A stretch of 64,000 bases of DNA from an uncultured Pseudomonadota bacterium (GTDB lineage Bacteria > Myxococcota_A > UBA796 > SXON01), in the NCBI GenBank assembly GCA_903921785.1, contig CAIXRH010000136.1:1-64000 (forward strand), written 5' to 3'. The notes beneath the pieces were generated by a model. That model had not been told where the DNA came from. It saw only the letters and a list, made by a program, of their open reading frames with translations, and searched no databases. Positions within the stretch are counted from its first letter, which is position 1. Each line of letters opens with the position of its first letter. Made by a program: the position numbers and the translations under genes. Of this stretch, positions 11,012-13,869 are shown one piece after another.

Positions 11012-13636
11012 ATGCCGCTGCCCGAGCTCCTCGCCCCCGCCGGTGACGCCGCCGCGCTCGCCGCCGCGCTCGCCGCGGGTGCGGACGCCGTCTACTTTGG
11101 CCTCGACGAGGGCCTGAACGCCCGGGCGCGGGCCAAGAACTTCGCCCTCGCCGAGCTCCCCGCCACCTGCGACCGCATCCACCGGGCCGGCGCCCGCGCG
11201 TTCCTCACTCTCAACACCGTCGTGTTTGAGGAAGAACTACCCCTTTTGGAGGAGCTCCTCCGCGGCGCCGCCCGCGCGGGAGTGGACGCCGTGATCGTCC
11301 AGGACCCTGCCGTCGCGCTCCTCGCGCGCGCCCTCGCGCCGACGCTGCACGTGCACGCGTCCACCCAGATGACGATCTCCAGCCCGGAAGGCGCGCAGTT
11401 TGCGGCGTCGCTCGGGGTGCGACGCATCGTGCTCCCGCGCGAGTTGTCCACCGCCGAGGTGGGTAAGTTCGTGGCCGGCACCGACCTGGAGACCGAGGTC
11501 TTCGTCCACGGCGCGCTCTGCGTGTCATGGTCCGGGCAGTGCCTGACGAGCGAAGCGTGGGGCGGGCGCAGCGCCAACCGCGGCCAATGCGCACAATCTT
11601 GCCGCCTCCCGTACGACCTCCTCGTCGACGGCGCCGTCCAGGACACGGCAGACGTCCGCTACCTCCTCTCCCCGCTGGACCAGGCCGCCTTCCGCGCCGT
11701 TCCGACCCTCGTCGAGATCGGCGTGACCAGCCTGAAGATCGAAGGTCGGATGAAAGGTCCGGCGTACGTCATGACTGCCGTCGAGGGCTACCGCCGGTGG
11801 CTGGACGCCATCGCCGCTCGCCGGGAGACCACTCCCGCCGCGCAATCCACCGCCCGCGCCGACCTCGCCCGGATGGGCGTCGCCTACTCCCGCGGCTTCG
11901 GCGACGGGTTCTTCGCGGGCAGCGACCACCAGTCCCTGGTTGAAGGTCGCTTCCCCAAGCATCGCGGCCTGCTCCTCGGCGAGGTCGTGGAGGTGGCCAG
12001 GGGCGGCGTTCGCGTGGTCCCCACCCCACGCGCCCCCACCGGCGGGCTCGCCCTCCACGACGGCGGCCTGCCCACCGGCGCGCTGTCCGCCCCCCTCCCC
12101 GCGCTGGCCGGCGCCGAACCAACGAGCGCCCGGGGCGTTCCCCCGGCCGACGTCACGCCCATCGCTGGCTTGGGCGTCGGCTTCGACACCGGCGCGCCCG
12201 AGACCGAGGAGCCCGGCGGAATCCTCTGGACCGTCGACCCAGCCGGGCCGGGCTGGTGGTTGCGTTTCAGTCGGGACAACGCATCGATTGCCCGTGTCCA
12301 GCCAGGACACCGCGTGTGGATCACCCACGATCCGCGCGTCGAGTCCGACGCGGAGCGGCTGCTCGGTGCGGACGAGCCGGAGGGCCGTGTGGCGATCACG
12401 GTCGAGGTCACCGGGGCCGTCGGCAGTCCGCTGCGCATCCGCCTCTTCCACGGTGGCGTCACCGTGGAAACCGAGGTCGGACTTCTCGAACCTTCCCGCG
12501 GCGACGGGCTCGACGGCGCGCTGCTCACCGAGAAGCTCTGCGCCTTCGGGGGTACGCCCTTCCGCCTGGGCGCGCTTGACACGACCCAGCTCGCCCCCCG
12601 ACTCCACCTCTCCCCCACGCTGCTGAAGTCCGCGCGCCGGGAGCTGGTTCCGCGCCTGCTCTCGGCCTGGCTGGCCTCGTTCCGCCACGAGGTGGCCGCG
12701 GCCCCGGTCGCCGACAGCGTGATCGCCGCCGCACGCGCGCTGACCCCCGAGCACTCCACCACGACGGCCCCGCAGCTCATCCCCCTCTGTCGCACCGAAG
12801 CGCAGCTCGAAGCGGTGATCGCCTCGGGCCTGCCCGCCGTGGAGCTCGACTGGATGGAGCTCGTCGGCCTCGGCCGGGCCGTCGAACGCGCCCGCAGCGC
12901 CGGGCTCCGGGTAGGCATCGCGACGGTTCGCGTCCACAAGCCTGGCGAAGAGGCCTTCGATCGCCGTATTGCCTCGCTCCGGCCGGACTCCGTCCTGGTG
13001 CGGCACTGGGCGGGCCTCGTGCACTTCTCCCGCCTCCCCGAAGGCGATCGCCCCGAGGTGCACGGGGACTTCTCGCTCAACGTCACCAACTCGGTCACGG
13101 CGCACCACCTGCTGGCGATGGGCGCCACCACCCTCACCGCCGCCCACGACCTGGACGAAACGCAGCTCGTCGCGCTCCTCCGGAGGTTCCCGGCCGATCG
13201 GCTCACCGTCGTCGCCCACCACCACATCGCCACCTTCCACACCGAGCACTGCGTCTACGCGCACACGCTCTCTCACGGCCGCGACTTCCGCTCGTGCGGG
13301 CGCCCCTGCGAAGCCCACCGCGTCGCCCTCCGAGACGCCGCAAAGCGGGACCACCCCGTGATCGTGGACGTCGGGTGCCGCAACACGGTCTTCGAAGCGC
13401 GTGCCCAATCTGCAGCGGGTGCAGTCCCCCGGCTGCTCGCGCGGGGGGTGCGCCGGTTTCGCGTGGAATTCGTGTGGGAGTCCGGCGAGGAGGCGGCGAC
13501 CGTGCTCGAGGCCTACCAGGCGCTGCTCGCCGGGAAGGCCTCCCCCGGCGAGGTGCTGCGTCGCGTCTCCGCCCACGAGCAGTTCGGCGTCACCGCGGGC
13601 ACCATGCGCACCCTGGCCCCGCCGGTGGCCCCATGA
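11012..13636 (+). CDS. Peptidase U32 family protein, RlhA/TrhP-like RNA hydroxylase
   Basis: An 874-residue protein. Residues 1-260 are the U32 core: LLAPAGDAAAL, GADAVYFG, VHASTQM, then the Cys-rich signature CVSWSGQC followed by RGQCAQSCR. U32 proteins of this kind bind an iron-sulfur cluster; in E. coli RlhA hydroxylates 23S rRNA C2501, TrhP hydroxylates wobble uridines of tRNA, and UbiU/UbiV act on ubiquinone. The long middle and C-terminal part, with further cysteines in CVYAHTL and SCGRPCEAH, fits the large RlhA-type architecture better than TrhP. The stop overlaps the ATG of a chorismate-mutase-like gene (ATGA). Family assignment is secure; the exact RNA target is inferred. Confidence 0.85.
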   Translation: MPLPELLAPAGDAAALAAALAAGADAVYFGLDEGLNARARAKNFALAELPATCDRIHRAGARAFLTLNTVVFEEELPLLEELLRGAARAGVDAVIVQDPAVALLARALAPTLHVHASTQMTISSPEGAQFAASLGVRRIVLPRELSTAEVGKFVAGTDLETEVFVHGALCVSWSGQCLTSEAWGGRSANRGQCAQSCRLPYDLLVDGAVQDTADVRYLLSPLDQAAFRAVPTLVEIGVTSLKIEGRMKGPAYVMTAVEGYRRWLDAIAARRETTPAAQSTARADLARMGVAYSRGFGDGFFAGSDHQSLVEGRFPKHRGLLLGEVVEVARGGVRVVPTPRAPTGGLALHDGGLPTGALSAPLPALAGAEPTSARGVPPADVTPIAGLGVGFDTGAPETEEPGGILWTVDPAGPGWWLRFSRDNASIARVQPGHRVWITHDPRVESDAERLLGADEPEGRVAITVEVTGAVGSPLRIRLFHGGVTVETEVGLLEPSRGDGLDGALLTEKLCAFGGTPFRLGALDTTQLAPRLHLSPTLLKSARRELVPRLLSAWLASFRHEVAAAPVADSVIAAARALTPEHSTTTAPQLIPLCRTEAQLEAVIASGLPAVELDWMELVGLGRAVERARSAGLRVGIATVRVHKPGEEAFDRRIASLRPDSVLVRHWAGLVHFSRLPEGDRPEVHGDFSLNVTNSVTAHHLLAMGATTLTAAHDLDETQLVALLRRFPADRLTVVAHHHIATFHTEHCVYAHTLSHGRDFRSCGRPCEAHRVALRDAAKRDHPVIVDVGCRNTVFEARAQSAAGAVPRLLARGVRRFRVEFVWESGEEAATVLEAYQALLAGKASPGEVLRRVSAHEQFGVTAGTMRTLAPPVAP

Positions 13637-13869
13637 GCCGCGCCGCCCTCGACCGGATCGATGACGCGATCCTGGTCCTCCTCGCCGAGCGAGACGAGGT
13701 GGTCGCCGCGCTCTGGGCCGACAAGGTGGCACAGGGCGTACCCCTGCGCGATGCCGCTCGCGAGGCGGAGCTGTTCGTAAGGGTTCGGTCAAACGCACAG
13801 GAACGGGGCATGGACCCTGACGCCGTCGAGGCCGTCTACCGTACCTTCGTCGGTCGGCGCCTGCGCTGA
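13633..13869 (+). CDS. Chorismate mutase-like protein (AroQ fold)
   Basis: A 78-residue helical protein. Aligned by eye with the E. coli AroQ domain it keeps the equivalents of Arg11 (Arg3), Arg28 (Arg20), Lys39 (Lys31), Asp48 (Asp40), Arg51 (Arg43) and Glu52 (Glu44), in the motifs IDDAILVLLAER, DK and PLRDAAREAEL. It ends before the positions of Ser84/Gln88: the first is Arg and the second is missing. Chorismate mutases convert chorismate to prephenate. The ATG overlaps the U32 stop by four bases, so translation is coupled. It could be an active mutase, a pterin or chorismate binder, or a regulatory subunit. The fold is likely; catalysis is uncertain. Confidence 0.7.
   Translation: MSRAALDRIDDAILVLLAERDEVVAALWADKVAQGVPLRDAAREAELFVRVRSNAQERGMDPDAVEAVYRTFVGRRLR

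Follow-up and report, generated by a model that had tools for sequence, protein, structure and literature searches.

The usual role of chorismate mutases (CMs) is the synthesis of phenylalanine and tyrosine, and in Escherichia coli prephenate is supplied by the CM domains of PheA and TyrA. Genetic evidence from E. coli has shown that prephenate is also required for two RNA hydroxylations, the RlhA-mediated formation of ho5C2501 and the TrhP-mediated formation of ho5U34 (PMC6599085). Deletion of pheA together with tyrA impairs the TrhP-dependent modification, and ho5U34 is restored by a CM-only PheA or by feeding of prephenate; the authors of that study stated that they had no evidence for direct catalysis of the hydroxylation by RlhA or TrhP, and reported that the glutamate and two cysteine residues of the shared motif are essential in both proteins (PMC6599085). 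For U32 proteins, CX6CX15CX3/4C has been reported as an Fe–S motif, and RlhA1 and RlhA2 are in most cases domains found together in one protein; the two-domain form is thus already known (PMC6747719). Among small CMs, the enzyme of Mycobacterium tuberculosis (MtCM) lacks Ser84 and Gln88 and has a C-terminal loop in place of the long third helix. Its activity increases more than 100-fold upon binding of DAHP synthase, with the C-terminus located at the interface (PMC4281200).

The locus described here lies in a window of 64,000 nucleotides, the whole stretch of DNA that was analysed, and consists of an RlhA-type U32 gene followed by a small AroQ-type CM gene (Table 1). The first-pass annotation had noted that the two genes share an ATGA, had cited, for E. 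coli, the prephenate requirement of TrhP and the dependence of RlhA on the chorismate pathway, and had proposed a functional link between the neighbours. The overlap is read directly in the sequence, a prephenate requirement of both proteins is borne out by PMC6599085, and the link gains support from a conserved neighbourhood and from the co-occurrence of both genes in genomes without the terminal enzymes of Phe/Tyr synthesis. On the whole, it appears quite probable from these sequence comparisons that the small protein is a dedicated CM feeding an RlhA-type U32 protein for RNA hydroxylation, in a lineage that appears to have lost the Phe/Tyr branch.

Table 1. Coordinates of the U32–CM pair and of its conserved residues in the window.
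Feature	Positions	Strand	Details
RlhA-type U32 gene	11012..13636	+	874 aa; N-terminal U32 domain, DUF3656, C-terminal U32-like domain
Catalytic/Fe–S motif of the N-terminal U32 domain	11495..11602	+	E162, C170-X6-C177-X15-C193-X3-C197; from alignment
Second invariant Cys set of the C-terminal U32-like domain	13250..13378	+	C747, C762, C766, C789; invariant alignment columns in the second PF01136 stretch
ATGA overlap of U32 stop and CM start	13633..13636	+	Direct in sequence
AroQ-type (CM_2) chorismate mutase gene	13633..13869	+	78 aa; PF01817
Active-site residues of the CM	13639..13764	+	R3, R20, K31, D40, R43, E44 = EcCM R11', R28, K39, D48, R51, E52; from alignment

The U32 protein matches PF01136 in two stretches (E=1e-80) together with DUF3656 (PF12392) in profile searches, which is the domain architecture of RlhA and places it among the RlhA-type U32 hydroxylases. 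RlhA is also its closest E. coli paralogue (40% identity over 348 aa, 207 bits), ahead of TrhP (27%, 134 bits) and UbiU (31%, 112 bits). Furthermore, its score with the TrhP equivalog model (NCBIfam PRK15452) is 175.8 bits against a cut-off of 534. The residues E162, C170, C177, C193 and C197 are invariant across 46 aligned sequences and correspond to E161/C169/C176/C192/C196 of RlhA and to E162/C170/C177/C193/C197 of TrhP. The four invariant cysteines of the C-terminal domain possibly form a second Fe–S site. The AlphaFold2 (AF2) model of the protein has a pLDDT of 88.8 and a pTM of 0.91. A sequence search of the PDB yielded no U32 family relative, and a fold search gave partial matches only, to the U32 peptidase Mk0906 (5d88) and to TIM barrels of a generic kind.

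The pairing of the two genes extends well beyond the window, and its conservation across relatives excludes a chance association. Named genome contigs provided 80 relatives of U32 for a survey. In about 55 of them a CM gene lies no more than 3 kb from U32, and these cases are spread over Myxococcota- and Planctomycetota-labelled genomes. Three arrangements occur: a downstream CM on the same strand as U32 (32 hits, Myxococcota-labelled and similar), an upstream, divergent CM (18 hits, Planctomycetota-labelled loci) and a CM convergent with U32 (6 hits, Myxococcus). Of the 26 tightly linked same-strand pairs, 22 allow a 4-nt NTGA start/stop overlap, and in 13 it is the sole listed start candidate. 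At the phylum level, an RlhA-type U32 gene and a CM gene lie less than 5 kb apart in 21 of 153 genomes from five families; a 22nd close pair, in genome G039, was excluded because the U32 match there is weak and different. The neighbours of the pair in the window, pyruvate kinase included, are absent beside U32 at the other loci, where no conserved third gene was found, so it is the pair and not the region that is conserved.

Several loci deserve separate mention. No single-chain U32–CM fusion was found; the long CM frames at L073:6616-7998 and L079:3707-5083, both beside U32, combine the CM domain with a C-terminal glycerophosphodiester phosphodiesterase (GDPD). A Planctomycetota MAG carries three tandem CM-like frames upstream of U32 (L068:2613-3965, − strand). 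Of these, the two lying farther from U32 match less strongly and are possibly copies in decay. The U32–CM pair of the window's lineage, from the same family and with 65% identity, is also present in a record titled Klebsiella pneumoniae (L025, CAMAXZ010000032.1), which is evidently a mislabelled metagenome bin. In genome G031, an RlhA-type U32 gene (PF01136 + DUF3656, 609-aa frame) is convergent with the chorismate synthase gene at a distance of about 20 bp (L192:2895-5802, G031:C40), which connects U32 physically with chorismate metabolism in a second way.

The distribution of the pair within the window's family (f1, 22 genomes) bears most directly on its function. Chorismate synthase is present in 21 of these genomes, and prephenate dehydratase (PDT) was detected in none with PF00800, a profile that would miss cyclohexadienyl dehydratase, a possible route to Phe. 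Prephenate dehydrogenase (PDH) is likewise without a match above cut-off in all 22. U32 is found in eight genomes (G000, G002, G004, G006, G009, G013, G014 and G015), and a CM above cut-off in exactly the same eight; genome G016 has a CM match of 23 bits, below cut-off, in a long frame. CmoA, the other RNA-modification enzyme that uses prephenate, has no match above cut-off in 38 relatives, f1 included. The near-universal chorismate synthase, the undetected PDT and PDH and the exact tracking of U32 by CM in f1 are new here; the open-access literature searched contained no earlier report of a U32–CM pair, and only PMC6599085 was relevant.

As PDT and PDH are undetected and CM occurs only with U32 in f1, the window CM probably does not serve Phe/Tyr synthesis. 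A housekeeping CM for that synthesis, which by chance lies beside U32 and also feeds it, would agree with the usual role of these enzymes and with the CM–PDH and CM–DAHP synthase fusions of other lineages of the phylum. However, neither terminal enzyme is detected in any f1 genome, relatives without U32 also lack CM, and the adjacency is confined to PDT-less genomes, all of which makes a housekeeping role unlikely. With no Phe/Tyr branch detected, U32 is the sole recognised client for prephenate here, and the pair is therefore read as a prephenate generator and its user. To judge from this distribution, RNA hydroxylation is most likely the only purpose for which the mutase is kept.

The same pattern holds at the order level, where the relatives are mostly MAGs of 72–99% completeness. 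Among 35 genomes without PDT and PDH, 11 have both U32 and CM, 24 have neither and none has only one (Fisher 2e-9, phylogeny ignored). On a chorismate-synthase tree, a joint change of the two genes is seen in all 6 independent pairs (p=0.031), and within f1 alone in 5 of 5 (p=0.0625). Passive linkage, the loss or transfer of an old operon as a unit with no functional dependence between its genes, could account for the pattern in f1, where the genes are adjacent and might be lost in a single deletion. More weight therefore attaches to the unlinked cases: U32 and CM are both kept on different contigs in G025 and G034, two closely related genomes of family f5, and in G031, the single case of f2, and a shared deletion is no ready explanation there. 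Together with the three arrangements in different lineages and the unconserved flanking genes, these cases render passive linkage highly improbable.

Across the phylum, 83 of the 153 genomes lack PDT, and of these 43 have both genes, three have only CM, none has only U32 and 37 have neither; the 70 genomes with PDT show no association between U32 and CM (Fisher values ignoring phylogeny). All 21 genomes with adjacent genes are PDT-less, and adjacency is found in none of the 12 PDT-containing genomes that have both. This table is weaker than the result at the family level because it includes CM–PDH and CM–DAHP synthase fusions, such fusions to PDH or DAHP synthase being found in PDT-less genomes elsewhere (G113, G131, G118 and G121). 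Two candidates for a free CM without U32 and PDT were rejected, as that of G040 is a CM–DAHP synthase and that of G139 a fusion with a solute-binding protein (SBP). The sole true exception to the co-occurrence is G122, a PDT-less genome with a free-standing 92-aa CM and no U32 (L181:1299-1574; G122:C201:21322-21552). The G139 protein (L182:954-2306, G139:C82) joins an SBP_bac_3 solute-binding-type domain to a C-terminal CM domain and resembles the exported CM/cyclohexadienyl dehydratase fusions that are reported from only nine bacterial species (PMC10520331). Many partial CM matches (profile positions 11-80) may be of the same SBP–CM type.

The small protein itself is a clear member of PF01817, with 60.3 bits against a gathering score of 27 (E=2e-16). 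Both it and the U32 protein are encoded in single copy in the 7.48-Mb assembly, each as the only CM_2 or U32 of the genome, and an AroH-type CM was not found there. Residues are numbered here after EcCM, the CM domain of E. coli PheA. As the first-pass annotation had observed, alignment to EcCM shows six active-site residues in place and the Ser84/Gln88 end absent: an Arg occupies the position of Ser84, and the chain stops before Gln88, so that the protein lacks the Ser84/Gln88 hallmark of the AroQ-alpha (EcCM) type. In 56 U32-linked CMs, the window's included, R11', R28, K39, D48, R51 and E52 are kept in 56, 56, 55, 53, 55 and 55, respectively; Ser stands at position 84 in 26 of them, the others having various residues there, and Gln88 is rare. 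The AF2 model (pLDDT 96) superimposes on E. coli CM (1ecm) with an rmsd of 0.8 Å over 69 residues, and its third helix stops at residue 70, followed by coil to residue 78. The C-terminal sequence FVGRRLR resembles the dyad but is not the dyad itself, and TIGR01808, the model for high-GC and archaeal CMs, gives 20.8 bits, below its cut-off of 52.

The loss of the Ser84/Gln88 end lowers confidence in full CM activity. The earlier suggestion that the protein could bind rather than convert its ligand was correct as to this loss, and binding alone is possible but not needed to explain the data. A non-catalytic protein that binds chorismate or prephenate, and delivers it to U32 or senses it on its behalf, would fit the Arg at position 84, the absent Gln88 and the drop in EcCM activity by a factor of 2x10^4 upon Gln88Ala substitution (PMC4281200). 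Such a role seems unlikely, however, in view of the six other near-invariant residues, the Ser84 retained in 26 of the 56 linked CMs and the absence from the genome of a further recognised CM that could provide the prephenate. In addition, MtCM is an enzyme without the same two residues, so these are not required of all AroQ enzymes. By this precedent and the near-invariant residues, a working enzyme is favoured.

PchB also has the AroQ fold, and its structures appear in the fold search with the window CM. The protein might catalyse another reaction, such as isochorismate–pyruvate lysis, or feed another, unrecognised pathway, with its proximity to U32 being secondary. This is very unlikely given the conserved D48 and E52 positions, the higher scores with CM models (38-41 bits) than with the isochorismate lyase model (22 bits) and the strict co-occurrence with U32, unlinked cases included.

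For the preferred reading of a dedicated mutase, the following scheme can be proposed. The U32 and CM genes would form one unit for prephenate-dependent RNA hydroxylation, probably translationally coupled. The small protein would act as a working AroQ CM converting chorismate to prephenate, and the U32 protein, as a putative Fe–S hydroxylase of the RlhA family, would use prephenate to add a 5-hydroxyl to an RNA pyrimidine; if E. coli RlhA is a guide, this is most likely C2501 of the 23S rRNA. The lineage appears to have lost the Phe/Tyr branch while still making chorismate, and would have retained the mutase for no other purpose than to supply U32 with prephenate. Turnover without Ser84 and Gln88 may be low but sufficient, or may be raised by the partner. 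The likeness to MtCM raises the idea that U32 could activate the truncated CM. More tentatively, the mutase could bind physically to U32, be completed or activated by it as MtCM is by DAHP synthase, and hand over prephenate directly. Bacteria that do not synthesise Phe/Tyr would then possess an RNA-modifying enzyme that carries its own generator of the co-substrate.

If the preferred reading is true, RNA modification would be the task of this chorismate mutase. The existing genetics come from E. coli strains whose CMs also feed Phe and Tyr synthesis, whereas a lineage apparently without this synthesis, in which CM occurs only with U32, provides independent evolutionary evidence for prephenate as the key metabolite beyond E. 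coli. Moreover, with just two genes, U32 and CM make up a compact system that could be reconstituted in vitro.

In comparison with the known systems, the window CM shares its fold and the six active-site residues with EcCM, the AroQ-alpha domain of PheA/TyrA, but is free-standing, without PDT or PDH and without the Ser84/Gln88 end. It also resembles the DAHP synthase-activated MtCM (AroQ-delta), likewise an AroQ protein of about 80-90 aa with a C-terminal loop and neither Ser84 nor Gln88, although identity to MtCM entries is 26-27%, fold scores are weaker than with EcCM, and its partner would be U32 instead of DAHP synthase. TrhP of E. coli and YrrN–YrrO of Bacillus subtilis, which form ho5U34, have the E162/C170/C177 motif in common with the window U32, and prephenate dependence has been shown in E. 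coli (PMC6599085); the window protein is nevertheless distant from TrhP in identity and far under the cut-off of its model. The closest counterpart is E. coli RlhA (YdcP), the 23S rRNA ho5C2501 synthase, with which the window U32 shares the U32 and DUF3656 domains and the E/Cys motif. The window protein is longer (874 versus 653 aa) and has the second invariant four-Cys set, and its gene overlaps a CM gene, whereas no CM gene lies beside rlhA in E. coli.
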